Origin: a virus
Virus record (IMG/VR): IMGVR_UViG_3300027763_002674
Span: 1 to 47,405 of that record
Reading direction: 5' to 3' (one strand)
Length of the DNA stretch: 47,405 bases
Shown: one piece after another, positions 1,854-16,696 of the stretch
Position numbering within the stretch: the stretch's first letter is position 1
Layout of the letters: every line of letters begins with the position of its first letter
Position numbers and translations under genes: made by a program
The notes under the pieces: generated by a model
The model's database searches: none
Told to the model about the DNA's origin: nothing
Seen by the model: only the letters and a program-made list of their open reading frames with translations

Positions 1854-2606
1854 TCAATCAGTTATACGAGGGTCAGAATAACCCAATTCCTGTACTATAT
1901 TTGAATTTTTTAATATATCAGATAATTCGTTTGGTATATTAACCTCCTTATTCATATTTTGAAATGGTTGGTTTATTTGCCAAGTTCTCATTTGTATCCT
2001 ATCGTATTCATTTGGCATATCATCTATATCTTTTATAGATACCTTTGATTGAAAAACGTAATCTTTTGTTTTAGATTCTAAAATATCATCTCTATAATTC
2101 AAACCAATATCATCAAGTATATCTTTTATACGCTTACCATTGTTTGTAAAAAAATCTTCATAACGTATTGTATATATGTTAGGAAAATTACCATCCCTTG
2201 CTTCTAAAAAACATTTACATGCTATAAAATATTCCTCAACAGTAAATGCATATTTAGGAGATAAATGCCAAGTTTCGTGAGATAATGGGTCATCTCCAGC
2301 TTTTATAATAGATGTAAATAAATTCCAAGGATTTCTAGTTACAAATATAACATAGTAATCTTTATATACAGATACAGGATCTTTTAGTGTTAAATACTCA
2401 ACACCCCTAACTCTTATTTCCATTGGAATGATTGGGGTTTTGATTAGAATAGATTCACTATCTCCTGCTGAATTTATATGATATTCATTTATTTCAAATG
2501 CTTCATCTACTACTTCAAAAACATCTTTACATTCTCCAAACTTAGATTTTAAAATAGATGTACCAGTATGTGGGTATCCTGTAATTAGGATTTTCTTTTT
2601 ATTCAA
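1854..2606 (-). CDS. Sulfotransferase family protein
   Basis: This 250-residue protein carries the hallmarks of PAPS-dependent sulfotransferases: a 5'-phosphosulfate-binding loop GYPHTGTSIL at residues 10-19 directly after the first strand, a KTP at 56-58, the 3'-phosphate motif TRNPWNLFTS around residues 90-99 (Arg91, Ser99), and RYEDF at 148-152. No signal peptide or membrane segment is present, so it should act in the cytoplasm. It is the last gene of the glycan block before the VWA gene. The acceptor is unknown; a glycan is likely from context. An APS-kinase-like gene about 6 kb upstream could supply PAPS. A related nucleotide-dependent transferase cannot be excluded, but the motif order fits sulfotransferases well. 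Confidence 0.75.
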   Translation of the reverse strand: MNKKKILITGYPHTGTSILKSKFGECKDVFEVVDEAFEINEYHINSAGDSESILIKTPIIPMEIRVRGVEYLTLKDPVSVYKDYYVIFVTRNPWNLFTSIIKAGDDPLSHETWHLSPKYAFTVEEYFIACKCFLEARDGNFPNIYTIRYEDFFTNNGKRIKDILDDIGLNYRDDILESKTKDYVFQSKVSIKDIDDMPNEYDRIQMRTWQINQPFQNMNKEVNIPNELSDILKNSNIVQELGYSDPRITD

Positions 2607-2616
2607 AATTTATTTA

Positions 2617-2784
2617 TTAATCTACATCATTCTCATCCCACCCATCCAAAGGAAATGTTGATTCCATTTCTTGGAATATAAATGTTAATTCTTTTTGAGC
2701 TTCCTCAACTCTATTCCAATCTTCAAATGCGATAGCATCTTCTAACATGTCTATAATGTCTTTGATTTTGTTTTCTACGTTCAT
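2617..2784 (-). CDS. Small acidic hypothetical protein
   Basis: I do not recognise this protein. It is about 55 residues long if it starts at the ATG at 2784, which has an A-rich upstream context like its neighbours. An in-frame ATG at 2802 and a TTG at 2814 would add 6 or 10 residues. The product is predicted to be helical and acidic (two amphipathic helices), ending in DGWDENDVD. It lies between a glycosyltransferase-like gene and the sulfotransferase gene with short gaps, so it is probably co-transcribed with them. Confidence 0.55.
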   Translation of the reverse strand: MNVENKIKDIIDMLEDAIAFEDWNRVEEAQKELTFIFQEMESTFPLDGWDENDVD

Positions 2785-2821
2785 AATGCTTTTATTTTTC
2801 ATTAAATATAACAATTATGAA

Positions 2822-3637
2822 TTAAACAATAAAATCATCAATTATAGAATCTTTTCTAAATGTATATTCGGTGGTTGGTTTGAACTCTATGTGATTACTA
2901 ACTACTTTAGTTTCCGCTGGTGGGTTTACAAAATTATTATAAATTTCATGCGGAATTCCCTTTGATACTCTTGTTATTAACATATAGCTTGGAAAAAATC
3001 TAATATCAATTTGTACTTTTGAAAAATGTACTGCTAAAAAATGCTCAGGCGGAAAAAGATAATGACCATCTTTCAAATATTCCATCATTTGTAAATAAAT
3101 AAAACTATAATAATCCATTATTTTAGGTTTCCCAAATGCGATACAATCATTTATACCATCCGATTGAGGAAATGCTTGACAACTATTTGAACCCATTGGT
3201 ACGTTTAACATATCATTTATTTCCAATTGAAAATTTTCATCAAGCAAAGTATCTATTCTAGCTCTTATTACAATATCATACTCAACACCTAATTGTTTAG
3301 ATAACATATTAGCTCTCCACACTTTATAATACATAGATAATTGCCCAAATGCTTTTGATGTTTGTTGAAACAGCGGTGCTATATTGGTGGGTGATTCGAT
3401 ATACATAGATGCAAAATCCTGTGTTGTTTGTTTGAATATATCATAACTTTCAACTTCTAAACGTTTTGGAGAATATACCTTTTCAAATTCTTTTATAGTA
3501 TCACCTAATTCAGAATTTTCAATATCCCAAAAAGAAGCATATACATCTATATCATATTTTTTAATAAGCGATGTCCAAAAAGTTTTAGTTTCATTTAGGT
3601 CTCTCATATGACCTGCAAAACATAATGCTACTCTCAT
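2822..3637 (-). CDS. Glycosyltransferase-like protein (paralogue of 27626-28354)
   Basis: This 271-residue protein begins MRVALCFAGHMRDL, then has a DIDVYASFWD strand and YDIVIRARIDT around residues 115-128. The same layout (a CL.G-type start, DVFIHSWD, YDIIIKARFD) recurs in the protein at 27626-28354, so the two are paralogues about 25 kb apart. The pattern fits a GT-A-like transferase of the type found in viral and bacterial polysaccharide clusters, with the Arg-x-Asp near the usual metal-binding position. Its start overlaps the cupin stop. Donor and acceptor are unknown. Confidence 0.6.
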   Translation of the reverse strand: MRVALCFAGHMRDLNETKTFWTSLIKKYDIDVYASFWDIENSELGDTIKEFEKVYSPKRLEVESYDIFKQTTQDFASMYIESPTNIAPLFQQTSKAFGQLSMYYKVWRANMLSKQLGVEYDIVIRARIDTLLDENFQLEINDMLNVPMGSNSCQAFPQSDGINDCIAFGKPKIMDYYSFIYLQMMEYLKDGHYLFPPEHFLAVHFSKVQIDIRFFPSYMLITRVSKGIPHEIYNNFVNPPAETKVVSNHIEFKPTTEYTFRKDSIIDDFIV

Positions 3638-3954
3638 ATTATATATTTATCATCTTTTATACAAGGTAATTTAACTACCGTTGTTATTGTATCCTCCAAT
3701 ACCTCAAAATCAGTTGCTTCACCTGGTTCAATTGTAATAATATCACCAGTACCATAAATAGTACCATTCATACGAACCTTACCATCTGATATAATCGTTA
3801 TTTCGGTTGCTATCTTATGGTAATGCTTTTCTTCTTTATCGCCAGCTTTGTAATTCTTTACAGCCACCTCAACATCATCAGTTTTATAAAGTGATGGTTC
3901 GAAGTTTCCCACTACCCATCCCCTAAACATATCTTTAAGCTTGTGTAATTTCAT
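3634..3954 (-). CDS. Small cupin-fold protein
   Basis: This 106-residue protein looks like a single-domain cupin: KHYHKIATEITIISDGKVRMNG (His43-His45 and Glu49 form the usual first motif), followed by YGTGDIITIEPGE and a closing beta-rich stretch. Cupins bind metals or small ligands and are common in sugar-nucleotide gene clusters as epimerases, isomerases or sensors. It overlaps the upstream phosphodiesterase-like gene by 20 bases and the downstream glycosyltransferase-like gene by 4. The specific reaction cannot be read from the sequence. Confidence 0.65.
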   Translation of the reverse strand: MKLHKLKDMFRGWVVGNFEPSLYKTDDVEVAVKNYKAGDKEEKHYHKIATEITIISDGKVRMNGTIYGTGDIITIEPGEATDFEVLEDTITTVVKLPCIKDDKYII

Positions 3955-4378
3955 CTTTATATTTTTTAATTACATCAGAACAAATTCCTTTACACACTAA
4001 AACATCTTCATTACTCCTTTCCGGCATCACTGCAATACTTCCTTTGATTGGTTGTTTACCAGGGTATGCCCAAACATAATTTTTAGATGTTAAAGCCACA
4101 GTATCTTCTTCATGCCAAAAATAATGAATAGCATATTTTTTCATTTCAAATAATGAATCTAAATGTTTGGCATGACACCATAACTTCTCATTCATCAAAA
4201 ACTTATAATTAGTTTCATATAATGGTTCATCGTGCCCTAACATAAATTTACCATCAACAAACCACACATCAACCTCAACATCATAACCTAAGTTTAATGC
4301 TTCATTAATATAATTCGGATGATTTTCTAAGTGTGGCTTCTTACCATCTATGTTTCCTCTGTGAGATATTAGTATCAT
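3935..4378 (-). CDS. Glycerophosphodiester phosphodiesterase-like protein (PLC-like barrel)
   Basis: This 147-residue protein has the start of a GDPD/PLC-like fold: SHRGN at 5-9 (catalytic His6, Arg7), EN at 18-19, VEVDVW at 34-39 (metal-binding Glu35 and Asp37) and LGHDEP at 47-52 (second catalytic His49). Typical GDPDs have about 240-300 residues, so this is a compact form. Similar short proteins sit in capsule and LPS clusters, where they may remove or remodel phosphodiester-linked groups. The gene overlaps the WavE-like gene by 4 bases and the cupin gene by 20. Substrate unknown. Confidence 0.7.
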   Translation of the reverse strand: MILISHRGNIDGKKPHLENHPNYINEALNLGYDVEVDVWFVDGKFMLGHDEPLYETNYKFLMNEKLWCHAKHLDSLFEMKKYAIHYFWHEEDTVALTSKNYVWAYPGKQPIKGSIAVMPERSNEDVLVCKGICSDVIKKYKDEITQA

Positions 4379-5151
4379 TTGTTTGATAATTTATAAGGTT
4401 CATCGCTAAATATTTGGTCGATAGTTGATATACTAAAATTTCTTTCAGGTATAAAATCATCTTTCCATTCTTTTTTAAATAAATTAGCTTTTATTTTATA
4501 TGGTTTTAATCTATCTATATTTAGGATATCAAAATGCTCTTTCATTAAAAATCTCCCATCAACCTTTTCATATCTATCGGGCTCTTTTGCATCTAAATAT
4601 GATTTCGTCAATCGTTCTTCAGGTGCATGTGTTTTAACATATTTATGAAAGTTACCATCAACTTTCCACTTAGATACATTCAATCTATTATTATCAAAAT
4701 TGTATTTTGCTGATTTAAATAAAATGAATAAATTTTCCGTTGTACCTGCCATAATATGGTCACTCATATGATATTCGGAATATTGCCATGCTCTAAAAAA
4801 TACAGATGAACTCCATAATTTTTCAGGAGCTGATTTAATGGATTGGTATATGTTTTCTGGAAATGACCAATATTCATCTCCTCTCATTTTGATAACATAT
4901 TTAGTTCGTACCATTTCCAGAGCATTTAAGGTGGATACGATTTGATAGTTTAAATTTTGGTCTCCACTTTCTATTGGTAGTGGTGATATTATTACTTTGA
5001 AATTTTTTGGTAAATTTGAAAAATCAATACGGTTAGTAATCCAAGTTGAAATAATTACTTTACAATTATCATATTTCTTAATATAAAAATCATAACTTTC
5101 TTGTTCCAATTTTCCTTGAATTATTATCGTAACATCTTCCATAAATTCCAT
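4375..5151 (-). CDS. WavE-like LPS-biosynthesis glycosyltransferase
   Basis: The 258-residue protein begins VTIIIQGKL (IQGK at 11-14), has ISTW at 34-37, then a Gln-rich helix and YVIKMRGDEYW around 85-95. This arrangement is characteristic of the WavE family, named for a lipopolysaccharide core gene of Vibrio. RGDE probably contains the metal-binding acidic residues of a GT-A fold. It is the first gene of a run of overlapping genes (GDPD-like, cupin, GT-like) and is expected to transfer a sugar in the cytoplasm. A second ATG lies three codons downstream. Confidence 0.7.
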   Translation of the reverse strand: MEFMEDVTIIIQGKLEQESYDFYIKKYDNCKVIISTWITNRIDFSNLPKNFKVIISPLPIESGDQNLNYQIVSTLNALEMVRTKYVIKMRGDEYWSFPENIYQSIKSAPEKLWSSSVFFRAWQYSEYHMSDHIMAGTTENLFILFKSAKYNFDNNRLNVSKWKVDGNFHKYVKTHAPEERLTKSYLDAKEPDRYEKVDGRFLMKEHFDILNIDRLKPYKIKANLFKKEWKDDFIPERNFSISTIDQIFSDEPYKLSNK

Positions 5152-5157
5152 TTGGTA

Positions 5158-5568
5158 TTATTTGAACCAGCCAATTTTTTCACCAGCTTTCTTTCTACGC
5201 TCGTATTCTTCTTCCGAACCCGGATATCTCCAAGCCCATACTACCCAAAATAACATAAATGCCCCAATACCAATAAGTGCTGCTGGTTTATGTATTGTAA
5301 ATAATATAATTGAATAACTAATAGCCATAGTGATGACCATTATCCATTTAACTTTTGTAGGATAAATACTTTTTTCTTCCCAGCGAATTAGATAAGGTGA
5401 GAATTTAGGATGAGTGTGCAACCAATGATTTAACTTTGGTGAACTCTTAGCGAATGCCCATGCTGCTAATATAACAAATGTTGTCATAGGTACGCCCGGC
5501 ACAATAGCTCCTATGTATGCGCAACCTACGAACAATAGTCCGAGTAATCTCCATAACCAAATTTTCAT
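5158..5568 (-). CDS. DUF454 (YbaN-like) inner-membrane protein
   Basis: This 136-residue protein starts with a hydrophobic segment (residues 1-35) containing the family pattern GAIVPGVPMTTFVILAAWAFAKSSP, then NHWLHTHPKF. Two more hydrophobic segments (about 73-93 and 95-113) and a charged cytoplasmic tail follow. This agrees with DUF454/YbaN inner-membrane proteins in order and size. The function of the family is unknown. It lies between the small basic gene and the WavE-like gene; a role in altering the host membrane is possible but unproven. Confidence 0.75.
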   Translation of the reverse strand: MKIWLWRLLGLLFVGCAYIGAIVPGVPMTTFVILAAWAFAKSSPKLNHWLHTHPKFSPYLIRWEEKSIYPTKVKWIMVITMAISYSIILFTIHKPAALIGIGAFMLFWVVWAWRYPGSEEEYERRKKAGEKIGWFK

Positions 5569-5583
5569 AACTTTTCTTTTTAA

Positions 5584-5712
5584 TTACTTCCCCTGTCCTT
5601 TGTACCTCTTAGGTGCTTGTGATTTAGGGCCGTATGATTTTCTACCATTGATTTTTCCAGTCTTTCTTTTACCGAAAGATACTTTGTTAGCTGAACCTAC
5701 TGACTTTGCCAT
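5584..5712 (-). CDS. Very small, highly basic protein (42 aa)
   Basis: A short frame from the ATG at 5712 to the TAA at 5584 encodes 42 residues beginning MAKSVGSANKVSFGKRKTGK, with about a third Lys/Arg and only small or polar residues otherwise. No acidic residue is present. It fills the gap between the kinase-like and DUF454 genes, keeps the local orientation and has an ordinary ATG start. The composition suggests nucleic-acid binding or packaging with DNA, but I do not recognise a family. Confidence 0.6.
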   Translation of the reverse strand: MAKSVGSANKVSFGKRKTGKINGRKSYGPKSQAPKRYKGQGK

Positions 5713-5749
5713 TTGTTGTTACTGTTTAATGTAAACGTAACGTAACCGG

Positions 5750-6538
5750 TTATAAATGTTTCTTAAGTTCTCTTGCTCCTAATATCCATTTCTTACCGAT
5801 TGGATTTTGGATTGGTTTTCTTAGGAAAGCATCTACTTGCTTTTGTACTGATTTAGAAATTGGTTGGTATTCTGTATTATCAACAATGATAAAATTATTA
5901 CCAAACATTCCTTGAAAGTGTCCCATATTCTCTTGACATTTTTTCCAAATAGTGTCAACAAGTTCAGGAGATAATGTTCTACTTCTCTCAGCGTTTCTTT
6001 TTTGTGCAACTTCCAAAGATGTATTTACGAATACCATATAACAATCATATCCAAGCTCTTCAGCTTTTTTCATTTTGTTACGAATTTTAAGAACTTCATC
6101 GCCTGTTCCATCGATAATCATTCCCAATCTTCCGGCCTCATAAAACGCCTGTTGTTTTTGTGTAACTGCTTTAGCTTTATTACGAATTGAATCACCTTCC
6201 TCTCCAGCTATGTAAGCCCAAAAGTTAGGGTCATTATCTTTAATATTTGCTAAATCTTTTGGATTAATACCGTTCTTCTTAAGAGCTTGTTCAAATGCTG
6301 TATCTGAACTAAGTACTTTAAGTCCTCCAGCAGAAACAGAAGAAATATCACTCTTACCAACACCAAAGATTTCCTTTGCTGTGTAGGATTTACCACTACC
6401 AGGTCCACCTGCTAAAAAGATACACTTAAGAATACCAGGATCATCAACTCCTTCGGTGATTAATTCAACGAATAGTTTTGTTTGGACTTCTTTAAGGTCT
6501 TTTTGAATAGATTTAAGTTCCGATAGTAGTTGATTCAT
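5750..6538 (-). CDS. P-loop kinase (AAA_33 / zeta-toxin-like)
   Basis: The 262-residue protein has a Walker A motif GGPGSGKS at 44-51 after a hydrophobic strand, MIIDGTGDE as a probable Walker B or substrate region near residue 138, a Cys-Tyr-Met-Val-Phe-Val-Asn strand followed by an Arg-rich lid (QKRNAERSR), and IIVDNTE near the end. This is the order of small phosphotransferases related to polynucleotide kinase, AAA_33 and zeta toxins. Its first 29 residues form an amphipathic helix ending LITEG, a possible prohead-protease site. It overlaps the upstream membrane-protein gene by one base. Substrate unknown. Confidence 0.7.
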   Translation of the reverse strand: MNQLLSELKSIQKDLKEVQTKLFVELITEGVDDPGILKCIFLAGGPGSGKSYTAKEIFGVGKSDISSVSAGGLKVLSSDTAFEQALKKNGINPKDLANIKDNDPNFWAYIAGEEGDSIRNKAKAVTQKQQAFYEAGRLGMIIDGTGDEVLKIRNKMKKAEELGYDCYMVFVNTSLEVAQKRNAERSRTLSPELVDTIWKKCQENMGHFQGMFGNNFIIVDNTEYQPISKSVQKQVDAFLRKPIQNPIGKKWILGARELKKHL

Positions 6539-6789
6539 TACTTAGTTTTCTTAGCTGGTGCTTTCTTTGTAGCTTTCTTCTCAACTACAACTGTCTTTGC
6601 AACCTTAGTTACTTTCTCAGCAACTGCTTTTACTTTCTTAGCAACTTCTTTTACTTCCTCTACCTTTTCTTCGATAGCATCAGGAATGTTGTTGTTGTTT
6701 GCATCTTTAACCTTACCGGTTTTCATAGCGATAAACGTAGCGATACCTGCAACAGCCAATACCAATACTACAATAGCGAATGTACTCAT
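6538..6789 (-). CDS. Single-pass membrane protein with Lys/Ala-rich tail
   Basis: This 83-residue protein has an N-terminal transmembrane helix (about residues 3-22), then DANNNNIPDAIEEK at about 29-42, an acidic calcium-loop-like element. A long Lys/Glu/Ala/Val helix and a basic tail ending KKAPAKKTK follow. The tail resembles histone-H1-like or DNA-binding tails, so the protein could tether nucleic acid or protein to a membrane; this is inference. The kinase-like gene starts on its stop codon. Confidence 0.6.
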   Translation of the reverse strand: MSTFAIVVLVLAVAGIATFIAMKTGKVKDANNNNIPDAIEEKVEEVKEVAKKVKAVAEKVTKVAKTVVVEKKATKKAPAKKTK

Positions 6790-6811
6790 AATTTTTGTTT
6801 TTAGAATTTTA

Positions 6812-6819
6812 TATAAATA
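6812..6819 (-). promoter_or_regulatory. TATTTATA element upstream of the membrane-protein gene
   Basis: On the minus strand TATTTATA sits 22 bases before the ATG at 6789. The same octamer or TACTTATA recurs before at least six other genes in the window at 17-40 bases from the start. It could be a phage-specific promoter core or a variant -7 box; no TTTG lies 20 bases upstream here. Confidence 0.3.
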
Positions 6820-6842
6820 TATTGTTTTTTAGTAAACGAATA

Positions 6843-7100
6843 CTAATTTTCCCCATATAAGGAGTATTTGGTAACAGGCTTCTCAACCTGAACCTCTTGA
6901 GTGTGGATAACCTCTACTGTACCCTTTCTAGCAGACAGGAAGAATTCGGTTTGCCCTGTGTTTTGGAAGTGATATTCCAATGCATCTGTCAAACTATCCA
7001 AAGTAACTGATGGAGAACCAACAGGTGACCATCTATCACCCGGTGGAACTCTTTTCATTACTACCTCTTTAACTTCTTCGATTTTTGTTTCGATTCCCAT
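6843..7100 (-). CDS. Hypothetical protein
   Basis: I do not recognise this 85-residue protein. It has an N-terminal amphipathic helix (IETKIEEVKEVVMKRV), then RVPPGDRWSPVGSPSVTLDSL and a beta-rich C-terminal half. It starts on the last base of the DUF4494-like gene stop region (shared position 7100), so the two are probably translationally coupled and share the promoter at 7351-7382. Confidence 0.55.
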   Translation of the reverse strand: MGIETKIEEVKEVVMKRVPPGDRWSPVGSPSVTLDSLTDALEYHFQNTGQTEFFLSARKGTVEVIHTQEVQVEKPVTKYSLYGEN

Positions 7101-7321
7101 TATGCGATAACTTGTAAGATTTTAGATTCTCTTGCAGCTGATACTTCATACTCTAAGCTTACACCTGCAGATTCGAATTCTTTAACTACTCTAGCTTCAG
7201 CTTCCGTAACGGACATTGCATCTACTAAATAACTTTCTTTAACTTTCTTAATTTTTGTACCGCCCTTACCACCATCTACTTCGTGTTGAACTGATACTGT
7301 AACTTCAAAATACTTTGCCAT
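7100..7321 (-). CDS. DUF4494-like small protein
   Basis: This 73-residue protein carries the pattern KKVKESYLVDAMSVTEAEAR at about 25-44. It matches the signature of DUF4494, a family of small Bacteroidetes and Bacteroidetes-phage proteins (usually YLVDA-x-S-x-TEAEAR). The family has no known function. It is directly downstream of one of the clearest Bacteroidetes-type promoters in the window, and this supports the host assignment. Confidence 0.65.
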   Translation of the reverse strand: MAKYFEVTVSVQHEVDGGKGGTKIKKVKESYLVDAMSVTEAEARVVKEFESAGVSLEYEVSAARESKILQVIA

Positions 7322-7350
7322 AATTTATTGTTTTAAATTGTTTAATATAT

Positions 7351-7382
7351 CAAATATACGATAATTTTTCCAAACTACCAAA
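7351..7382 (-). promoter_or_regulatory. Bacteroidetes-type promoter for 7321-6843
   Basis: On the minus strand a perfect -33 TTTG is followed by exactly 20 bases and a perfect -7 TATATTTG. The -33 box is extended as TTTGGTAGTTT, identical over 11 bases to the clamp promoter at 47255-47286. The -7 box ends 29 bases before the ATG at 7321. The -33 box abuts the stop codon of the upstream gene. Confidence 0.8.
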
Positions 7383-7946
7383 TTAATACTCATATTCTTT
7401 TCGAGGACCGGTTAAATTTCCATTAATTAGGAACGAACAGTTAAAACATAACATACGCAAATTATCATATGTAAAGTTTTTTCTATTACTATCCAAAAAA
7501 TCTAAAATTAGTGGAACTCTGTGGTCTGTTACCCTTCTTTCTTCAAAACCACAACTGCAGCATTTCTCCTCCACATATCCACTTAATAACAATCGTTTCT
7601 TTAATTTCCAAACTGGATAATTCGGGAATTTACCAGCAAGAATATCATCTAATGCATGAAATCCATGTGTAGTGGTAGTTCCTTTGCGGATACCAATACC
7701 AGATGGGTTTTTTAAATCTTCAAAAATTTTATATTCTCTTGCGTACTTTTTGTATGTGTTATACGATACACCTAATAATCTTGCTGCTTCAGCCGCTGAA
7801 CGGGCTTTCTTTTGGATATCCTTTATTTCACTCTCTAATAAAGGTCTAGCTCCTAATCCTCTTTTTGTTCTCTTTTGAGGGGCTAGTGATAAATTTTGAG
7901 TTGGGTCAAAGTTTGGGAACTCTTTTATTTCATTTACATCTTCCAT
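7383..7946 (-). CDS. HNH-type endonuclease with N-terminal helix-turn-helix
   Basis: In this 187-residue protein, residues about 40-75 form a helix-turn-helix-like segment (EAARLLGVSYNTYKKYAREY). The C-terminal region has CCSCG, then RVTDHRVPLILDF, an Asn-Leu-Arg and LCFNC, which together make up an HNH/treble-clef nuclease fold with two zinc-binding CxxC pairs. Such stand-alone HNH proteins in phages are often homing or mobile endonucleases; others are packaging-associated nucleases. The gene has its own promoter-like sequence overlapping the DUF2061 gene, in keeping with an independently acquired unit. Confidence 0.65.
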   Translation of the reverse strand: MEDVNEIKEFPNFDPTQNLSLAPQKRTKRGLGARPLLESEIKDIQKKARSAAEAARLLGVSYNTYKKYAREYKIFEDLKNPSGIGIRKGTTTTHGFHALDDILAGKFPNYPVWKLKKRLLLSGYVEEKCCSCGFEERRVTDHRVPLILDFLDSNRKNFTYDNLRMLCFNCSFLINGNLTGPRKEYEY

Positions 7947-7980
7947 AACTAATTTGATAGACTATTTATATTTCTATATA

Positions 7981-8012
7981 TAAGTATATCAATTTTCTTT
8001 TTTCAATCCAAA
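7981..8012 (-). promoter_or_regulatory. Promoter-like sequence for the HNH gene
   Basis: On the minus strand TTTG, 20 bases, then TATACTTA, a -7 box differing from TAnnTTTG at two positions. It also contains the recurrent TACTTATA octamer (7979-7986). The -33 half lies inside the end of the DUF2061 coding region. Confidence 0.4.
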
Positions 8013-8204
8013 TTTTATCCATTTATACCAAACTCTTTCGTGGATATAATATTGAATAGGTTTGTAAATCAATTCTGCTACCCCAAATGCAGCACCTACT
8101 TTAATTGAACCACTTATCCACCACATTAAAATAAAACCTATAAGCGTACTTAAAATACGATATGAGATGGTTTTAGCTATATGTCTCTTACGTTCTACTA
8201 TCAC
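7989..8204 (-). CDS. DUF2061 small membrane protein
   Basis: This 71-residue protein matches the DUF2061 pattern: ERKRHIAKTISYRILSTLIG at the N-terminus, a hydrophobic segment with MWWISGS, and the ending YKPIQYYIHERVWYKW (Tyr-His-Glu-Arg-x-Trp). As far as I know, DUF2061 proteins in flavobacteria and some other bacteria are often encoded beside the sulfate-activation genes cysC, cysD and cysN. Here an APS-kinase-like gene lies just upstream (8856-9326), so a link to sulfate or PAPS metabolism is plausible. It starts on the stop of the nucleotidylyltransferase gene. Confidence 0.75.
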   Translation of the reverse strand: MIVERKRHIAKTISYRILSTLIGFILMWWISGSIKVGAAFGVAELIYKPIQYYIHERVWYKWIKFGLKKEN

Positions 8205-8581
8205 TATCCTTTCGTTTCATCGTAGGTTATAGTTCCATCGGGTGTCATATGACCTGTTCTGATTGCAGTACCACTAATTGCGGCTACATCCGTTGGTGGT
8301 TCGTGATAGATTACATCATACCCCACACCTCTACCATAGTTCACCGATTCAATATCAGGAATAATAGATAACAAAATCTTATCGAAATTGTTCATAAAGA
8401 ATGGTTCGGCTGACAATTCTTTTAGAATTTGCTGTGCAGTTTTGGGATTGTTCTCATCTTGTTGAACATCTCTAATAGCCACCCAAACATTTTTACCAGT
8501 TTGTAATTGTTGGTTGATTAACCATTCGTGTCCTTTGTGCCAATTCTGCCATCTTCCTATGTATAGTGCGTATTTTTTCAT
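8204..8581 (-). CDS. Small nucleotidylyltransferase (HxGH / ISGTxIR type)
   Basis: The 125-residue protein has the two signatures of the cytidylyltransferase/NMN adenylyltransferase superfamily: GRWQNWHKGH at 9-18 (HxGH) and ISGTAIR at 102-108. The size fits a single Rossmann-like domain, as in NadM/NadR-type or glycerol-3-phosphate cytidylyltransferase-type enzymes, and the ISGTxIR form leans toward NMN adenylyltransferases. Context with APS-kinase-like and DUF2061 genes could mean NAD supply, activation of a sugar or polyol phosphate, or an AMP transfer linked to sulfate activation. The substrate cannot be assigned from sequence. Confidence 0.7.
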   Translation of the reverse strand: MKKYALYIGRWQNWHKGHEWLINQQLQTGKNVWVAIRDVQQDENNPKTAQQILKELSAEPFFMNNFDKILLSIIPDIESVNYGRGVGYDVIYHEPPTDVAAISGTAIRTGHMTPDGTITYDETKG

Positions 8582-8583
8582 AA

Positions 8584-8859
8584 CTATCCTTTTAATTTAT
8601 TGTATTGAATTTTGTTCTTTTGGTTTTCCCACTTCATTTCAACAGCCACCCACTTACCTCTAGGACAAGCTCCTATCTTTGGAGTATATATCTTAGCTTT
8701 AAGTGCACACATACACTCACCACAATGAATAAGTGGTGTATCTTTTTTAGAATCACAAGTATCACATATCTCCATACGAGCTATTGCTAATTCAGATTGA
8801 ATATCATTTGGGTTTAGCATTATACCCCATGCTTTGAATATTTCTGTTATTTTATTCAT
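8584..8859 (-). CDS. Stand-alone zinc-ribbon protein
   Basis: This 91-residue protein has Cys32, Cys35, Cys46, Cys49, Cys51 and Cys65 in the pattern CxxC...CxxCxC...CPxxKW, likely to bind one or two zinc ions. The same module with the same flanks (WGI, NPND, CP..xW) forms the N-terminus of the glycosyltransferase-like protein at 12257-13441. The gene overlaps the APS-kinase-like gene by 4 bases. A role as an adaptor or docking domain is an inference from its reuse as a fusion partner. Confidence 0.65.
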   Translation of the reverse strand: MNKITEIFKAWGIMLNPNDIQSELAIARMEICDTCDSKKDTPLIHCGECMCALKAKIYTPKIGACPRGKWVAVEMKWENQKNKIQYNKLKG

Positions 8860-9326
8860 ATTTTTTCAATATCTTTTAAATAATGAATTAATCTAGTAAA
8901 AGATTGAACTGGGTTTTCTGATGTTGTATCCAAGTCAAAGAAATTTTCAATTGGTGGTTCGTATCCCTCAACTTTAAATTGTTCTCTATTTCGTTTTCTA
9001 TTTGTATGAACATATATTTCAACAATATGTTCTCCACAAACTTTTTTGAATTCTTCTCTTAATTCTTTGTAAGGTGCTACCAATGAAACAACCACATCAC
9101 ATCCATTAGCTTGTAAAAAATATGATAGCAATTGTGCATTTTTAATGTTTATAATTCTGCCTTGTTCTGTATAATCTTGGTTAAGAGTGAGTTCTCTTAA
9201 ATTATCACCATCAATGTGAAATACATCCTTTCTCCAATTACGTTTTTCGGTTTGAAGAAATTCTTTTAGTTTTGTTCCTTGAACTGTCTTTCCTGCGCCA
9301 GGTTGGCCAGTAAACCAATATATCAT
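8856..9326 (-). CDS. Adenylylsulfate (APS) kinase-like protein
   Basis: This 156-residue P-loop protein has Walker A GQPGAGKT at 7-14, HIDGDNLR at 37-44, an RIINIKNAQ helix, SLVAPYKELREEF at 81-93, an IVEIYVHT strand and a YEPP segment near 122. This is the order of CysC-type APS kinases, which phosphorylate APS to PAPS, the donor for sulfotransferases. The usual ARAGxIxxFTGID stretch that helps bind APS is shortened and replaced (residues about 110-121), so the substrate could differ. DUF2061 lies close downstream and a sulfotransferase is encoded at 1854-2606, which supports a sulfation role. Confidence 0.7.
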   Translation of the reverse strand: MIYWFTGQPGAGKTVQGTKLKEFLQTEKRNWRKDVFHIDGDNLRELTLNQDYTEQGRIINIKNAQLLSYFLQANGCDVVVSLVAPYKELREEFKKVCGEHIVEIYVHTNRKRNREQFKVEGYEPPIENFFDLDTTSENPVQSFTRLIHYLKDIEKI

Positions 9327-9349: not shown

Positions 9350-10150
9350 TTAGTTTATAAATTTTTTAGCGTATCTTTCGAAATATTCTAAATTAAATTT
9401 ATCAGTATTATCAGCCAACCAATTATAGTATTTTTCATATACTTCGTTTAATTGTATCTTTGATAATTTTTGTAAAGGTCTTAATGCGTAATCTCTTGAA
9501 GCTTCTTTATGATTTTCAAAATTATTAGGTGAACCAATAGCTCCACTTTGTTTATGACCGGCAATATCATGTGGGTCACTCCAATTAAAGCAATATGATG
9601 GTACAAAATTATTATTTAATTCGTACAATTGCTTTTCATCTCTTAGTTTAGTGTACCAACTCAATCCCTCATATCCAGTTATATCTGAACGGAATCCTAT
9701 TTCTCTAATTCTATTCATCTTAACAATAACACTAGCTTCTAATGTGTTTTGGCACATTTCTATTTTATTTGATGTTGCAAATAAACTTGCTCTTGGTTTC
9801 CAAGCATCAGTTCCCAATTCTTCGATACCTTCTACTGCTTGTTGAATATGCCAAGGTAAATAAATGTCATCATCATCTGCTAACATAAAATAATCACCAG
9901 TTGCATGAGTAACCGCATCTCTACATATCTGACCTCTATTTTCATAATCACATGCTGTTTGATAATTTATATTGTTGTTCACAATTACAATACTATCATC
10001 TCCAAATCCCAACTCATATGGATGTTCTTCATCGGTATTGAATATAATTAATTCTTTGTTTGGATATGTTTGTGCATGATATTGTGCTACTATCCTTTCA
10101 ACACAAGTAAATCTACCATAGGTAGTACATACGAAACTAACTTTTTTCAT
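9350..10150 (-). CDS. Family 2 glycosyltransferase
   Basis: This 266-residue protein has a GT2/GT-A layout: VSFVCTTYGR at the N-terminus, YPNKELIIFN near 30, then DYFMLADDDDIYLPWHI around 85-101 with the acidic DxD-type nucleotide-sugar and metal site. The C-terminal part has ETGYEGLSWY-like and NWSDPHD segments, which probably bind the acceptor. It overlaps the HldD-like epimerase gene by 14 bases. The acceptor is unknown. Confidence 0.8.
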   Translation of the reverse strand: MKKVSFVCTTYGRFTCVERIVAQYHAQTYPNKELIIFNTDEEHPYELGFGDDSIVIVNNNINYQTACDYENRGQICRDAVTHATGDYFMLADDDDIYLPWHIQQAVEGIEELGTDAWKPRASLFATSNKIEMCQNTLEASVIVKMNRIREIGFRSDITGYEGLSWYTKLRDEKQLYELNNNFVPSYCFNWSDPHDIAGHKQSGAIGSPNNFENHKEASRDYALRPLQKLSKIQLNEVYEKYYNWLADNTDKFNLEYFERYAKKFIN

Positions 10151-10919
10151 TTAAGTATTTTTTATATTCTTTTAATCCTTTTTTCAAATTGAATTTTGGC
10201 TTCCAATTTGGCATCCATTTATTTTCTAAACTTAGTGTTTGAAATTGGTATCCCTTTGGTATTTCTGATTGATTATGATATGTGTATTGTAATCCTAAAT
10301 TATCAAATATTGTTTCAAATGTATTACTCTCACCACTACCAACTTCATACCAATTTCCTTTTAACTTATCATAGTTTTCTAATGCGTATAAATTGGCATT
10401 TATAATATCATCCACATAAACAAAATCTCTTTTTGGTTTACCTGGAAATAATTTAATTTCAGTATTATTTAAATTCTGATAAATAATTGATGCCATATTT
10501 CCTTTATGTTCTTCACCAGGCCCATACACATTAAAGTATCTTAATGCAATACCACCGTTAGAAACAACATAATCTTCACCCATTAACTTAGACCAACCAT
10601 ATAAGTTAGAAGGCTTCTTACCATCAAACCCATACACAGCTGCCGATGATGCGTATATTATTTTTTTATTGTTAGTAATACACCAATCAGTAATCCATTT
10701 TGTAGATAGGTAATTTCTTTCCATAACAAATCCAATATCAGTAGCAAGAGTATCACTACATGCCCCAATATGAAACACTACATCTGGATTATGTATATCC
10801 AAAAAGTTATTAATATATTTCATATCATACTTCTCATCAATACCAATTACTGATGTGAATTGTGTGAATAAATTTTTACCAACAAATCCCTTATGTCCAG
10901 TTATTACTATCTTATCCAT
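10137..10919 (-). CDS. ADP-glyceromanno-heptose 6-epimerase-like (HldD-like) dehydratase/epimerase
   Basis: This extended short-chain dehydrogenase of 260 residues has ITGHKGFVGKN (NAD-binding GxxGxxG at 8-14), HIGACSDT at 50-57, SSAAVYG at 91-97 and the catalytic YxxxK as Tyr107/Lys111. EEHKGNMAS at 136-144 and KRDFVYVDD near 162 are very close to HldD (RfaD), which epimerises ADP-D-glycero- to ADP-L-glycero-D-manno-heptose. HldD has about 310 residues, so this is shorter. It lies between GT25 and GT2 genes and overlaps both. Another NDP-sugar as substrate is possible. Confidence 0.7.
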   Translation of the reverse strand: MDKIVITGHKGFVGKNLFTQFTSVIGIDEKYDMKYINNFLDIHNPDVVFHIGACSDTLATDIGFVMERNYLSTKWITDWCITNNKKIIYASSAAVYGFDGKKPSNLYGWSKLMGEDYVVSNGGIALRYFNVYGPGEEHKGNMASIIYQNLNNTEIKLFPGKPKRDFVYVDDIINANLYALENYDKLKGNWYEVGSGESNTFETIFDNLGLQYTYHNQSEIPKGYQFQTLSLENKWMPNWKPKFNLKKGLKEYKKYLNEKS

Positions 10920-11551
10920 TTTTTATACATTTCTCTATATTGTTTTTCTCTTTTTATTTTGCCTCCCCATAAATCACTTTCAAATCCATCATCTTGCCAA
11001 GCTAATAAATCCGTACACATATAATAATTGTTTGAATACATACTCATATATAATGTATCAATAACACCCAACGTATGTGGTATAGAAAGTACCTTATCAT
11101 AAAAAGATTCATTGATTACATAAGCATGTGTGGCGTACATACCAGCAGTACATTTGGCTAAATTATCACTTACAATATTACATTCTCCACCTGGCTCACC
11201 TCCCATATAAAACATATCCCATTCCTTATGTTTAAGTTCTTCTATACACGTTTTAACCTTATCAACAAACCCATCTACAAATACACAATCATCTTCAAAT
11301 ATTACACAATTTTTCCAAGCTCTACGTTTTGCTTCTTTAATCATTTCAAAGTGAGAGTATGTACATGATATTTTAATATGCCAATCCCTGCCGTTAAATG
11401 GATTTGGTACATCTTCTTCTTTAAGTTGAATAGCTGGGAATCTTTCTACTTCGAATCCCGCTTCTTTACTTCTCTTTTCAAATGCCTCTTTCCTTTCAGT
11501 TCGTTTATCTAAGTTAAGATAAAATCCACCATCAAAATAATCAAATATCAT
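10907..11551 (-). CDS. Family 25 glycosyltransferase
   Basis: This 214-residue protein has the GT25 (LPS-biosynthesis) signatures: FYLNLDKRTERKEAF near the start, the SHFEMIKEA helix at 66-74, VIFEDDCVFVDGF with Glu86-Asp87-Asp88, and a C-terminal DTLYMSMY / QDDGFESD region. GT25 enzymes transfer galactose or related sugars onto LPS or protein. It overlaps the HldD-like gene by 13 bases. The tight spacing with the FkbM methyltransferase gene points to one transcription unit. Confidence 0.8.
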   Translation of the reverse strand: MIFDYFDGGFYLNLDKRTERKEAFEKRSKEAGFEVERFPAIQLKEEDVPNPFNGRDWHIKISCTYSHFEMIKEAKRRAWKNCVIFEDDCVFVDGFVDKVKTCIEELKHKEWDMFYMGGEPGGECNIVSDNLAKCTAGMYATHAYVINESFYDKVLSIPHTLGVIDTLYMSMYSNNYYMCTDLLAWQDDGFESDLWGGKIKREKQYREMYKKWIR

Positions 11552-11552
11552 A

Positions 11553-12260
11553 TTACTTAGGTATTGCTATATAATCAACTAAATGTGCAGCATCAATTAC
11601 TTTTTTATATGTGTATCCCAATGTATCCAATCTATCGAATACATCTTTCTCAGTCCAACCATATATTTGTAATTGTGGTACTTCCACTTCTATAAAGATT
11701 ATAGGTTTGTGTTTTTTGATTGTTTCGATTGCCCCATCTAATACTTTTGGTTCGTACCCCTGTACATCTATTTTTAATACTGCAAGATTTTCAAACTCAT
11801 ATGAGTCCAAAGGTTTAACTTCTACATCATTATATCCAGACCCATAGTAAGCATCTAAATGAGCATTACCAATATTGATTGTATCATCTGAATGATATTG
11901 TAGATTTTCCATTTTAAGGTTTGTATGTTCATCGCTTAATGCTATATTGTGTGCTGTAATATTATCATACCCATTCAAAATTATGTTTCCGCATAATTGA
12001 TAGTAAACTAATTTTTGTGGTTCAAATGATACCACCTTCCCATCATCAACTAAATCAGCAAACTCCAATGTATGAAATCCAAAGTTAGCACCTACATCAA
12101 TTATTGTTTTTCCTTTGATATCTACATTATCTCTAATGTAATCAAAAATGTAATGTTCATAAATACCACCTTTACGAGTCATATCACTTACACCACAATC
12201 ATTTTTAAATATAATATACTCCTTGCGAGTCTTTACATATTCGGTTGGTAATCTTCTCAT
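11553..12260 (-). CDS. FkbM-family methyltransferase
   Basis: The 235-residue protein has the SAM-binding motif IIDVGANFGFHT at 53-64, VVSFEPQ at 76-82, the following NIILNGYDNITAHN stretch and LKIDVQGYEPKVLDGA near 163-178. These are diagnostic of the FkbM family, which O-methylates sugars or natural products. Here it probably methylates a glycan made by the surrounding glycosyltransferases. It overlaps the zinc-ribbon/GT fusion gene by 4 bases. Confidence 0.85.
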   Translation of the reverse strand: MRRLPTEYVKTRKEYIIFKNDCGVSDMTRKGGIYEHYIFDYIRDNVDIKGKTIIDVGANFGFHTLEFADLVDDGKVVSFEPQKLVYYQLCGNIILNGYDNITAHNIALSDEHTNLKMENLQYHSDDTINIGNAHLDAYYGSGYNDVEVKPLDSYEFENLAVLKIDVQGYEPKVLDGAIETIKKHKPIIFIEVEVPQLQIYGWTEKDVFDRLDTLGYTYKKVIDAAHLVDYIAIPK

Positions 12261-13441
12261 AGTAGTACTGATTTTTTAGCTGTCTTTTGTATTTCATTCC
12301 AATAGTACCAACTTGCTGTATTTGGTGTTATTTGTAAATTTTCATTGTATGGTAGTTTATCCATATAATGTGCTTTATAGAATTTACCACTATCACTACC
12401 TGTGATACCAGCATTATGAAATATATTCATTCGTTTATAATCTTCTTCATTTGATGTTGCCCAGCTAAATTCCATATTTGGGTGACACTCCGTATGTACT
12501 CTCATTTTCCAAGCATTCCATAATACAGCCCACATATCAGCACACCATATTTGTAATTCGTGATGTTTTGGGTCAGCTTGTTTTTTAATTTGGTTTAATT
12601 GATTTATATCTTTAAAAAGTAATTCAGATTCTCTTTCAACTCTATCCCAATAATAATGAGTCAATCCTTTCATTATGTATTGTGCTCCTATTGCATTTTT
12701 TTCATACCCCTTAACAACTCCTTTGTTTATACCAACTATCTCACACATTTTAGTAAGTACATCATCACCTTTTGATAAAATGTAATCATGTCCAATATAC
12801 CAACGAGTGTCCGAACCATACCACTTCTCATCATTAATCATGTCATCGGTAATCCATTCATTGATTGGCTTTGTAAATATAATATCGCAATCATGATAGA
12901 ATATAGTTTCATTTTTTAATTCAGGATATTTTTCCCAATGCTGTTTTAGGATATTAGGTCTTATAGATGATATATAATCTTTTGTTACTCTAGTATCATC
13001 ATAAAAAAAGAAACGGGCTGCATATCCATTTGCCAATTTGGACCAAGCTTCAGGTATTGTACCATCTTCTTTCCAACATACGATATCAACATTATTTAAG
13101 TTGATACCCATTTCCATAAAATTATTTAACATTACTTCTACCTGCCAAGTGTAATAAGGAATTGCAGGTTGTGCTGATACGAATCTTAGATTTTTCTTAC
13201 TTTTGTATTTTATCAATTTGTCCTCAACGTATGCCCATCTATTATCAGGACATTGTCCCATTTCTTGAGTAAATACTTTTGATTTCAACATACATCCACA
13301 TAGTGAACATACATTTTTTACACCATCAACTTCTTTTTTGTTGGGACAAGAATTACACACCTCAATTCGTTTGGATGCTAATTCATTTCTTTCATCGTTT
13401 GGGTTGTAATCAATACCCCAAGATTTAAAAATTTCTTCCAT
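12257..13441 (-). CDS. Zinc-ribbon domain fused to a glycosyltransferase-like domain
   Basis: In this 394-residue protein, residues 1-70 form the same six-cysteine module as the stand-alone protein at 8584-8859 (Cys29, 32, 45, 48, 50, 64; CPDNRW). Residues about 85-390 look like a GT-A glycosyltransferase: LRFVSAQPAIPYY, VDIVCWKEDG, SIRPNILKQHWEKYPEL and IFYHDCDIIFTKP with the DxD at Asp184-Asp186. I know of no described family with this fusion. The fused and the stand-alone forms within 5 kb suggest that the zinc module is a docking or regulatory unit. Confidence 0.65.
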   Translation of the reverse strand: MEEIFKSWGIDYNPNDERNELASKRIEVCNSCPNKKEVDGVKNVCSLCGCMLKSKVFTQEMGQCPDNRWAYVEDKLIKYKSKKNLRFVSAQPAIPYYTWQVEVMLNNFMEMGINLNNVDIVCWKEDGTIPEAWSKLANGYAARFFFYDDTRVTKDYISSIRPNILKQHWEKYPELKNETIFYHDCDIIFTKPINEWITDDMINDEKWYGSDTRWYIGHDYILSKGDDVLTKMCEIVGINKGVVKGYEKNAIGAQYIMKGLTHYYWDRVERESELLFKDINQLNQIKKQADPKHHELQIWCADMWAVLWNAWKMRVHTECHPNMEFSWATSNEEDYKRMNIFHNAGITGSDSGKFYKAHYMDKLPYNENLQITPNTASWYYWNEIQKTAKKSVLL

Positions 13442-13488: not shown

Positions 13489-15408
13489 CTATGGACAAAT
13501 GCCATCCAATGCTTCAACCCCGATTGTTGTTGCCGCAGTTATTGTTGCATTTGTTATTGTAAATGTTCCACCACTTCCATTTAATGTTTGACAAGTAACA
13601 ACACTATTACTATCTGTAAATGAAATTCGTTGACCAGGTGTATGACTACCATACGAAATAACTACATTATAAGTTCCTATTTGAGTACTTGTAAAGCTTC
13701 CATTATCACCAGCATTAAGATAAAAATCAGGACCGTATCCAATCCAAGTTACGGCAACTCCATTAATAGTCATACCTCCAATTGGTATATCCAACGAACC
13801 CACATTCTGAATGAAAATATCAACGCTTGGTGCTGCGGTTGTTCCTAATGTAGTAGTTGATGTACTAGTCGATGTTGAAGTACTTGTTGTTGGTGGTTGC
13901 GTTGTAGTCGTTGTAGTTGAAGTAGTAGCCGGACATCCTGTTAAACCTGAATTGGTGATACCAATTTGAGTTCCACCAGGGTTGGCAAATAATATGCTTG
14001 CAACAACTAATGTAGAAGGTACTCCTAAAACATTTCCAAAAACTCTATCTGTTACTGCAGCATATCCAATATTATAATTCGTTGAATATACAGTTCCGCC
14101 TCCATTACAATTTGTTAATTGATACCAAACTTGTTGAAGTGTAGTAGTAGTTGTAGTTCCCGCTTGAGTAGTTGTACTTGTAGTTGTTGGTGCCGCAGTT
14201 GTTGATGTTGTTGTTGTACTTGTTTCGCCCGGAGGTAATGGAACAGTTGTTGTACTTGTTGTTGATGAAGTACTTGTTGTAGTTGGTGCTTCGGTGGTTG
14301 TTGTTGTACTACTAGTCGATGTAGTTGATGTAGTTGAAGTAGATGTACTTGTTGTTGAAGTAGATGTACTTGTTGTTGAAGTTGAAGTTGATGTTGTAGA
14401 TGTAGTTGTTGTTGTTGGACAAACTGCTTCATTTTGGAATATACCAGTTGTAGAAGCAGGACATGTACCAACTCCATTATTATTTGCAGTCATTCCTCTT
14501 AAATTTGATATATCACCCGCACAAACTGCAGTACTTGTAGTTCCATCGTAAACATATATTTGCTGAAATGCTCCACTACAATCAAAATAATCAACATAAT
14601 CATCAACGCCTGTATTATTTGTAAATGTGTATTCAAAACAATTTGGAGATATATACCAATATTTACTTCCATTAGAATACCAACCAGATGGTGCTTTTGT
14701 AGTTAGTGTAATATCAGTATATAAATTAAGTCCATTTTGCAATAACTCACCAGTATAAGAATAATAATTTGTTTGTGATGCAAAACATGCTTGCCAATCC
14801 GTAGTTGCACTATACCCTAAACTAAACGTTTCAGGTGGTAACGTAGTTGTTGTTGATGTTGTTGATGTTGTTGGTGCAGCAGTTGTTGTTGATGTGGATG
14901 TACTTGTTGTTGATGTTGATGTTGTGGTTGTAGTTGAACAAGAACCAGTTGATGTTATTTCACCATTTGTATTACATAAAAACCAATCAATACCATTTGA
15001 ATAGTAACCAGCAACTACATGGTTTGTTAAAGTATTATCAAAATATAATGTTATACCAATTTGTAATGTAGCCCCAACCCCAGCATAGTATGTTATTGGG
15101 TCTGTTGTATATTTTGTACAAGCAGTAAAGAAGTTTGCACCATCACGACCTAATACAAATGATGTAATTCCTAATGTTGTTGTAGATGTTGTTTGACCTG
15201 TAATATTTAATACTATTGAATTTGTACAAGTTCCAGTTGAAGTAACAGTAATTTGCGTTGCTGCAGCGTTTACATCTACAAATACTCCAGTAGTTAATTG
15301 TGATTTGGTTACGGTGCTAGGGGTAACACTACCAACATTAGCCGTAAGGTTAAAGTTAGGTCCTAAATCAGCTCCTAAACCAGAATTAAGTGTTACTAAT
15401 ATATTCAT
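13489..15408 (-). CDS. Mucin-like adhesin with Cys-framed modules and Thr/Ser linkers
   Basis: This 639-residue protein alternates globular beta-rich modules with Thr/Ser/Pro linkers at about 158-193, 331-425 and 493-527. Two modules of about 55-60 residues (95-157 and 205-257) share the pattern ACxxx...YY...G..LY.D..LT...GxYSNG..W...C and recur in the next protein upstream. A different module lies at 258-330, and a further beta-domain at 528-639 contains IGGMTINGVAVTW. No signal peptide is present. Position beside fibre genes suggests an exposed virion adhesin. The linkers could be rigid spacers or glycosylation sites. Confidence 0.65.
   Translation of the reverse strand: MNILVTLNSGLGADLGPNFNLTANVGSVTPSTVTKSQLTTGVFVDVNAAATQITVTSTGTCTNSIVLNITGQTTSTTTLGITSFVLGRDGANFFTACTKYTTDPITYYAGVGATLQIGITLYFDNTLTNHVVAGYYSNGIDWFLCNTNGEITSTGSCSTTTTTSTSTTSTSTSTTTAAPTTSTTSTTTTLPPETFSLGYSATTDWQACFASQTNYYSYTGELLQNGLNLYTDITLTTKAPSGWYSNGSKYWYISPNCFEYTFTNNTGVDDYVDYFDCSGAFQQIYVYDGTTSTAVCAGDISNLRGMTANNNGVGTCPASTTGIFQNEAVCPTTTTTSTTSTSTSTTSTSTSTTSTSTSTTSTTSTSSTTTTTEAPTTTSTSSTTSTTTVPLPPGETSTTTTSTTAAPTTTSTTTQAGTTTTTTLQQVWYQLTNCNGGGTVYSTNYNIGYAAVTDRVFGNVLGVPSTLVVASILFANPGGTQIGITNSGLTGCPATTSTTTTTTQPPTTSTSTSTSTSTTTLGTTAAPSVDIFIQNVGSLDIPIGGMTINGVAVTWIGYGPDFYLNAGDNGSFTSTQIGTYNVVISYGSHTPGQRISFTDSNSVVTCQTLNGSGGTFTITNATITAATTIGVEALDGICP
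14134..14418 (-). repeat. Thr/Ser-rich low-complexity coding repeat (95 residues)
   Basis: This stretch encodes residues 331-425 of the adhesin: short irregular units such as TSTSTTSTST, broken by EAP, AAP and VPLPP. The DNA is built from ACT/AGT/ACA/TCA-type codons and creates artefact frames on the other strand. Shorter versions occur at 158-193 and 493-527 of the same protein and in the protein at 15458-16696. Confidence 0.85.
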
Positions 15409-15457
15409 ATACTTTTAAATATCTTTCATTTTTGTTTTTAATATTCATAATAATCTA

Positions 15458-16696
15458 TTAGAACGAACTACAGTCAACAGAATTACTTATATATCCACCA
15501 GTATCAATTTGTATTACATAACTAGTAGAAGCATTGTATTCGTTGTACCATGAATTTGAACCATTAAACGGTGTTGTCATTCCACTATCAGTATAGAATC
15601 TTGTCACTGTAAGCCATGTTGTATTATTACCATAAATCGTTTGACTATTATCATAATAAGCACAAGCATCATATTCAGTTCCCCCTGCAGTACTTACACC
15701 ATAAGCCGTTCCTGCCGATGTAGTTGATGTTGATGTGCTAGTTGTTGAAGTTGATGTTGTTGAAGTAGTTGATGTTGAAGTACTTGTAGTTGTTGGTGCT
15801 GCAGTTGTTGATGTACTTGTAGTTGTTGTGCTTGTATATGTAATAACCGCAGAACCACCAGCGTAAGTACAAATAGGTGCCGCAGTTGTTGTTGATGTTG
15901 TTGAGGTTGTAGTTGTGGTATTAGTACAACTTACAGCCGCTGTTTTAAATGTATATACACCTGAACTATCTCTTAATACAACATAATAAATTGCATTATA
16001 TAATCCAGTAAATGAATATGAAGTTGCTCCACTTAAACTTATAGGAGTTGCTGCTATTGCATTGCCGGCCGATGAACCAATTGCAATACTTTGATAAACA
16101 CCAGTACCTCCAGTAAACGCATTAGCTAAAATAGTACCAGTACCATCGATACCAATACCAGCACAACCAGGAGTTAATGTAAAATTAACAGGAGGTATTG
16201 TTGTTGTAGTTGTTGTACTAACACCAATATAAACACAATTGCATGAAGGATATGGATTACAATTACCAACTATTGATATCGTTGCGAATGATGAAGCTGA
16301 AACTGAGTTTTGTACTGCTTGTACATCAATCTGTTTCATTCTACTATAAAGTAATTGTCTAGGACCAGGAGTACCCTCACATTCAGTCCAATCTACATAT
16401 GAAGTTTTATCTGCTGCTACTGATACTCTGTAAATATACACCGATGGTATATTACATTGAACAGGTGATTTTAAATTTATCTCACCAGTATTGAAGTTCA
16501 TTTCATACACAAATCCACCAAATTTAATGAATTCGTATCCAGTTACAGGTTGAGTAAGTGTATTATTAAAATATACTTTACAACTAATTCCCAAAGTTGC
16601 ACAATCCGAATATACTGTTTGGTCTTCCGCTGAATTTGTGGAACAAAATGTACTATCGAATGTATTAAAATATTTTACACTATGCGAATACGCCAT
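15458..16696 (-). CDS. Second mucin-like adhesin, related to 13489-15408
   Basis: This 412-residue protein has a Cys-framed module at the N-terminus (about 15-80, FNNTLTQPVTGYEF..., ending in Cys) and another at the C-terminus (about 345-409, with RFYTDSGMTTPFNGSNSWY, ending VDCSSF). Between them lie a domain with DKTSYVDWTECEG, another with TGGTGVYQSIAIGSS, and Thr/Ser linkers near 158-168, 260-275 and 285-330. Modules and linkers are shared with the downstream protein, so the two probably arose by duplication and shuffling. A virion surface role is inferred from the fibre-gene context. Confidence 0.65.
   Translation of the reverse strand: MAYSHSVKYFNTFDSTFCSTNSAEDQTVYSDCATLGISCKVYFNNTLTQPVTGYEFIKFGGFVYEMNFNTGEINLKSPVQCNIPSVYIYRVSVAADKTSYVDWTECEGTPGPRQLLYSRMKQIDVQAVQNSVSASSFATISIVGNCNPYPSCNCVYIGVSTTTTTTIPPVNFTLTPGCAGIGIDGTGTILANAFTGGTGVYQSIAIGSSAGNAIAATPISLSGATSYSFTGLYNAIYYVVLRDSSGVYTFKTAAVSCTNTTTTTSTTSTTTAAPICTYAGGSAVITYTSTTTTSTSTTAAPTTTSTSTSTTSTTSTSTTSTSTSTTSAGTAYGVSTAGGTEYDACAYYDNSQTIYGNNTTWLTVTRFYTDSGMTTPFNGSNSWYNEYNASTSYVIQIDTGGYISNSVDCSSF

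Follow-up and report, generated by a model that had tools for sequence, protein, structure and literature searches.

The systems closest to the locus analysed here are the synthetases of 3'-phosphoadenosine 5'-phosphosulfate (PAPS) and the sulfation genes of rhizobia. PAPS synthetase combines the ATP sulfurylase Sat with CysC, the kinase of adenosine 5'-phosphosulfate (APS), and the two are fused in animals and in Aquifex (2GKS). The rhizobial proteins NodPQ and NodH sulfate Nod factors, NodPQ being of the CysDN/CysC type. Here we analyse a gene cassette in a 47,405-base virus record (IMGVR_UViG_3300027763_002674, taken over its whole length and called the window) which resembles PAPS synthetase in that an adenylyltransferase from the HxGH superfamily is paired, and in some cases fused, with an APS kinase. 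Unlike that of PAPS synthetase, the adenylyltransferase has only about 110-125 residues, is related to nicotinamide mononucleotide (NMN) adenylyltransferase (NMNAT) and matches neither Sat (PF01747) nor CysD nor CysN. As in rhizobia, genes for PAPS synthesis and a sulfotransferase share a glycan region, related phages also carrying a NodU-like carbamoyltransferase, but the genes are carried by a phage, and a small, unrelated enzyme would perform the first step. The accessible text of several papers reports sulfotransferase, cysC and sat singly in phages (PMC10580990, PMC9789665, PMC8290583), that of another an annotated adenylylsulfate kinase in a phage (PMC8504454), and the role of the phage sulfotransferase is called unclear (PMC10580990); neither the compact cassette nor the nucleotidyltransferase is described in these texts.

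The window comes from a phage with T4-like replication genes, since it contains clamp-loader and sliding-clamp genes; the record is probably a fragment, and no DNA similarity was found between it and phage records. The three open reading frames named in an earlier note on this DNA, for a sulfotransferase, an APS-kinase-like protein and a DUF2061 protein, were all found where it had placed them, on the minus strand (Table 1), and the DUF2061 protein scores above its Pfam cut-off of 23.1 bits. That note had overlooked the nucleotidyltransferase gene, which shares 1 base with the DUF2061 gene and, in most relatives, comes immediately after the kinase. Judging from sequence and gene content, we consider that the cassette (9326-7989) probably encodes a compact PAPS synthase feeding one or more sulfotransferases that decorate a glycan or protein. 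The nucleotidyltransferase would convert ATP and sulfate to APS in place of ATP sulfurylase, the kinase would phosphorylate APS to PAPS, and DUF2061 would be a membrane accessory of the cassette. PAPS would then serve the sulfotransferase of the window, and those of related phages, in making a sulfated glycan or protein during infection. The earlier idea of a phage sulfation branch is thus supported in part: the suggestion that the phage boosts PAPS supply gains in strength, as the cassette also contains a candidate for the preceding step.

The kinase matches Pfam APS_kinase (PF01583) with an E-value of 5.9e-16 and 59.3 bits (cut-off 21.1). When its family profile was compared with the PDB, the strong matches were all APS kinases, as were nearly all matches overall, and the top 50 PDB fold matches of its AlphaFold2 model (predicted local distance difference test score 90) were APS kinases or their domains only. 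It has in common with canonical CysC the P-loop, DGDxxR, (Y/F)S..(G/D)R and S.(V/I).PY...R; the P-loop, DGDxxR and the APS-contact residues (the aromatic residue, R and PY...R) are kept at more than 70% in the phage, the separate bacterial and the canonical/fused groups. By profile, modelled fold and residues the protein belongs to the APS-kinase family, in line with the earlier note, and it is predicted to phosphorylate APS. In known phages, the kinase and the nucleotidyltransferase have no more than distant relatives. Two Stenotrophomonas phages (L287:5599-6339 and L288:5590-6321) encode a divergent fused kinase-nucleotidyltransferase in which GR.VGY is kept; the L287 copy adjoins a NADAR-domain gene.

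The solved proteins closest to the nucleotidyltransferase are archaeal-type NMN adenylyltransferases, and its fold matches NMNAT and PPAT; Pfam returned only a weak CTP_transf_like match, below the cut-off. With archaeal-type NadM it shares the fold and the motifs GRxQ..HxGH and SxTxxR, but it scores 21 bits against the NadM equivalog (TIGR01527), whose cut-off is 181.2. Residues kept at 95-100% across the phage, bacterial and archaeal proteins are GRWQ..H.GH, R37, P46, G83 R84, G87 and S.T..R. The region after PDIE, roughly the place of nicotinamide binding in NMNAT, is shorter than in NadM and has an extra invariant GR..G, a correspondence extrapolated beyond the HMMER alignment. NMNAT and ATP sulfurylase have the HUP fold and binding mode in common (PMC6957218), so that a switch of substrate is plausible, and the nucleotidyltransferase may have the activity of an ATP sulfurylase while lying outside the Sat family. 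On balance we favour the view that this member of the NMNAT family represents an additional class of ATP sulfurylase, not recognised before and far smaller than Sat. Haloarchaea, marine archaea and Marinimicrobia would use the enzyme, and many environmental viruses would carry it as part of a mobile cassette for PAPS synthesis. The evidence for this, the strongest claim made here, is all comparative genomics, from which we infer it. No description of the nucleotidyltransferase as an ATP sulfurylase was found in the open-access literature, to which the search was largely confined.

Scans of viral contigs gave 355 relatives of the kinase and at least 263 of the nucleotidyltransferase. Across 102 viral locus groups, 78 of which have all three genes, the kinase, the nucleotidyltransferase and DUF2061 follow one another in a nearly constant order, co-directional and mostly overlapping. 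Kinase and nucleotidyltransferase point the same way in all 83 groups that have both (stop-to-start distance at most 35 bases in 51), as do nucleotidyltransferase and DUF2061 in all 87 groups with that pair (at most 35 bases in 70), DUF2061 always lying downstream within 2 kb. The claim that DUF2061 is often found beside sulfate-activation genes thus holds for phages (87/87), but in Bacteroidia it was borne out in only one of four sampled loci. The first half of PHROG 10255 matches the kinase and its second half the nucleotidyltransferase, which indicates a fusion. Since the order of the three genes is near constant while the flanking genes vary, the cassette appears to move as a unit. The four-cysteine gene (phrog_13558) is probably an insertion into it: the window and its close relatives, L003 among them, are the only records in which it separates the kinase from the nucleotidyltransferase, and elsewhere it is placed differently.

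Variants of the cassette were also seen. DUF2061 has about 75 extra N-terminal residues in 12 locus groups (cluster 40; L034:5183-5632 and relatives). In many viral groups a HAD-family gene (cluster 14; L072:10426-10770 and relatives) lies between kinase and nucleotidyltransferase; it weakly matches the 3'-phosphatase domain of PNKP and therefore might recycle 3'-phosphoadenosine 5'-phosphate.

A scan of cellular genomes yielded 423 relatives of the nucleotidyltransferase, the best 80 of which were examined for context. Among these 80, the genes of Marinimicrobia, marine Bacteroidota, SAR86 and marine group III mostly lie beside a kinase gene, and in Poseidoniales and haloarchaea most are fused to one. 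The fused kinases of the latter two are canonical CysC with a complete lid (131-153 Pfam bits), and in the Marinimicrobia-type loci L159 and L162 the nucleotidyltransferase adjoins a full canonical CysC. Cellular neighbours include sulfotransferases (PF13469, PF00685, PF19798) and, in Poseidoniales, a gene of the inositol-phosphatase family resembling CysQ.

All 37 cellular genomes with the pair have an APS kinase and 36 of them lack Sat; none has CysD or CysN over the cut-off, the below-cut-off CysN matches in archaea being presumably the elongation factor EF-1A. In a draw of 195 Halobacteria genomes, the full-length fusion was present in 6 and free CysC in 4. Sat was present in all four free-CysC genomes, on the same contig near CysC, versus none of the six fusion genomes (Fisher p 0.005), or none of 14 once fusion genomes found earlier were added (p 0.0003). 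It was absent from all 30 of the Halobacteria tested that had neither fusion nor free CysC, and CysD was over the cut-off in none of the 40 Halobacteria tested. A separate NMN adenylyltransferase was over the cut-off in 10/10 haloarchaea tested, and 11 of 13 marine group II genomes had a second NadM-like locus. With Sat complementary to the fusion and NadM kept separately, the most economical interpretation is that the nucleotidyltransferase takes the place of ATP sulfurylase.

The sulfotransferase of the window, predicted to use PAPS, narrowly passes the cut-off of Pfam Sulfotransfer_1 (PF00685; E 6.6e-6, 26.1 bits, cut-off 22). The PAPS-binding motifs that the earlier note had read as intact, GYPHTGTSIL (5'-phosphosulfate-binding, 5'-PSB) and RNPWNLFTS (3'-phosphate-binding, 3'-PB), are indeed kept in the relatives L002 and L003/L004, the L003 protein being 49% identical. 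The sulfotransferase of the window matched nothing among phage records, PHROG, NCBIfam families and solved structures. Its gene belongs to the same long run of minus-strand genes as DUF2061 and lies 5.4 kb downstream of the latter; in L002 and L003/L004 the distance is 4.7-5.7 kb. A fixed place of the sulfotransferase in the cassette was considered and rejected, as the scan gave a single close relative of the protein in the window. Frequent neighbours of the cassette are divergent genes (clusters 3, 29, 32 and 129) whose products have a sulfotransferase-like 5' motif; they were not confirmed as a sulfotransferase group, 5, 4 and 2 of 60 members weakly matching Sulfotransfer_1, _3 and _2, respectively.

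Several observations weigh against assigning the cassette to PAPS synthesis. The nucleotidyltransferase is nearer to NMN adenylyltransferase than to Sat in sequence and in fold. The canonical lid (KGLY.KAR.G.I..FTG), present in the fused archaeal kinases, is shortened in the phage kinases, and the kinase of the window reaches 56.5 bits against a cut-off of 138.7 for the NCBIfam apsK equivalog (TIGR00455); as it passes the Pfam cut-off and misses this one, we file it in the wider APS-kinase family. Nucleotidyltransferase and DUF2061 occur without a nearby kinase in nine viral locus groups, and the kinase alone in nine. One cellular genome (G072, titled Gammaproteobacteria, which holds L168) has both the pair and Sat, and many cellular genomes are metagenome-assembled or single-cell genomes that may be incomplete, so that single gene absences weigh little. 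Furthermore, cysD, cysN and cysC have been annotated in marine group IIb genomes (PMC6864105); the marine group II genomes searched here gave no CysD match, and the published cysD and cysN were not recovered. As to the proposed sulfation of a glycan or protein, it is favoured by the sulfotransferase of the window, by its retention in L002 and L003/L004 and by cassette-adjacent ones in other phages; it is weakened by the family search, in which only 9 of 50 viral records with a complete or partial cassette have a recognisable sulfotransferase. Of 10 matches in this search, 7 lie inside the cassette or at most 1 kb from it, versus 0.63 expected under uniform placement (P 2e-7), and these 7 are not independent, because 6 belong to one protein family (cluster 48).

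We considered the possibility that the pair makes another activated donor, a 3'-phosphorylated nucleotide with a different small anion. CysC-like kinases also act on other nucleotide donors, and in Campylobacter the CysC-like Cj1415 does so in the pathway to the capsular phosphoramidate. The phage kinase is marginally best in the NCBIfam subfamily PRK05541 rather than apsK, and the interposed HAD-family gene and the glycan genes around the cassette would also fit such a pathway. Yet the nucleotidyltransferase is fused to, and exchanged with, full canonical CysC, sulfotransferases and a CysQ-like gene adjoin, the fusion is complementary to Sat in Halobacteria, and none of the annotated neighbours was recognised as a partner from the phosphoramidate pathway. 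We therefore regard this as improbable, though the best placed of the alternatives.

Next in rank, and likewise doubtful, is the supply of PAPS or APS not for phage-directed sulfation but for ordinary uses, such as assimilatory reduction or the replenishment of the host's pool. Most cassette-bearing viral records have no recognisable sulfotransferase, and PMC9789665 reports that phages have cysC, cysH and sat among their auxiliary metabolic genes. Where sulfotransferases were found, in contrast, they were mostly by the cassette, and the divergent genes with sulfotransferase-like motifs, a few of which weakly match Pfam sulfotransferases, are frequent neighbours.

A salvage pathway of nicotinamide adenine dinucleotide (NAD), with the kinase forming NMN from the riboside and the nucleotidyltransferase NAD from NMN, would agree with the closest solved homologues of the latter and with the NADAR-domain gene beside the distant Stenotrophomonas phage fusion, but is very improbable in view of the place of the kinase among APS kinases, the complementarity with Sat, the extrapolated replacement of the post-PDIE region by a short one with GR, and the separate NadM in the same cellular genomes, for which we also judged an NMNAT function of the nucleotidyltransferase unlikely.

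If the cassette does make PAPS, it would supply the missing first step of sulfate activation to archaea and bacteria that have an APS kinase and no known ATP sulfurylase, and a tiny enzyme would be available to test for this step. Many environmental phages would be able to make the sulfation donor themselves, and the unclear role of phage sulfotransferases would become testable.

Table 1 Coordinates in the window of the cassette, the sulfotransferase and neighbouring genes
Feature	Position	Strand	Basis or remark
APS-kinase-like P-loop kinase, 156 residues, shortened lid	8856..9326	-	PF01583, PDB profile, AlphaFold2 fold
Small four-cysteine protein (CxxC...CxxC)	8584..8859	-	phrog_13558; between kinase and nucleotidyltransferase
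Minimal HxGH nucleotidyltransferase, 125 residues; candidate alternative ATP sulfurylase	8204..8581	-	fold, residues, fusion
DUF2061 small membrane protein, third cassette gene	7989..8204	-	PF09834, 56.8 bits
Sulfotransferase, predicted PAPS user	1854..2606	-	PF00685; 5'-PSB and 3'-PB motifs
Glycan genes upstream of cassette: GT2, NAD epimerase, GT25, FkbM methyltransferase, 394-residue protein with four-cysteine domain	9350..13441	-	Pfam
Genes between cassette and sulfotransferase: 2822-3637 (phrog_13607), cupin-like, phrog_34507, WavE-like	2822..5151	-	Pfam, PHROG

The glycan genes upstream of the cassette are a possible source of the glycan for sulfation. The four-cysteine domain occurs twice in this region, once on its own (8584-8859) and once as the N-terminal part of the 394-residue protein (12257-13441). 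Two proteins encoded next to the glycosyltransferase genes (13489-15408 and 15458-16696) contain long Thr/Ser-rich tracts (TTSTSTSTTT...) resembling targets of mucin-like glycosylation; the Ser/Thr-rich proteins at 13489-16696 are possible sulfation acceptors. In related viral loci (clusters 4, 10, 8 and 21) the neighbours include NodU-like carbamoyltransferases, tryptophan halogenases and, by their look only, genes resembling 2-oxoglutarate-Fe(II) oxygenases, so that the region is rich in modification genes. A DUF454 membrane protein (5158-5568, 102.5 bits) is encoded in the same region of the window as the cassette and the sulfotransferase. The window also encodes a protease of the subtilase family (33815-35413), and in the related locus L008 a subtilase-like gene adjoins the kinase.

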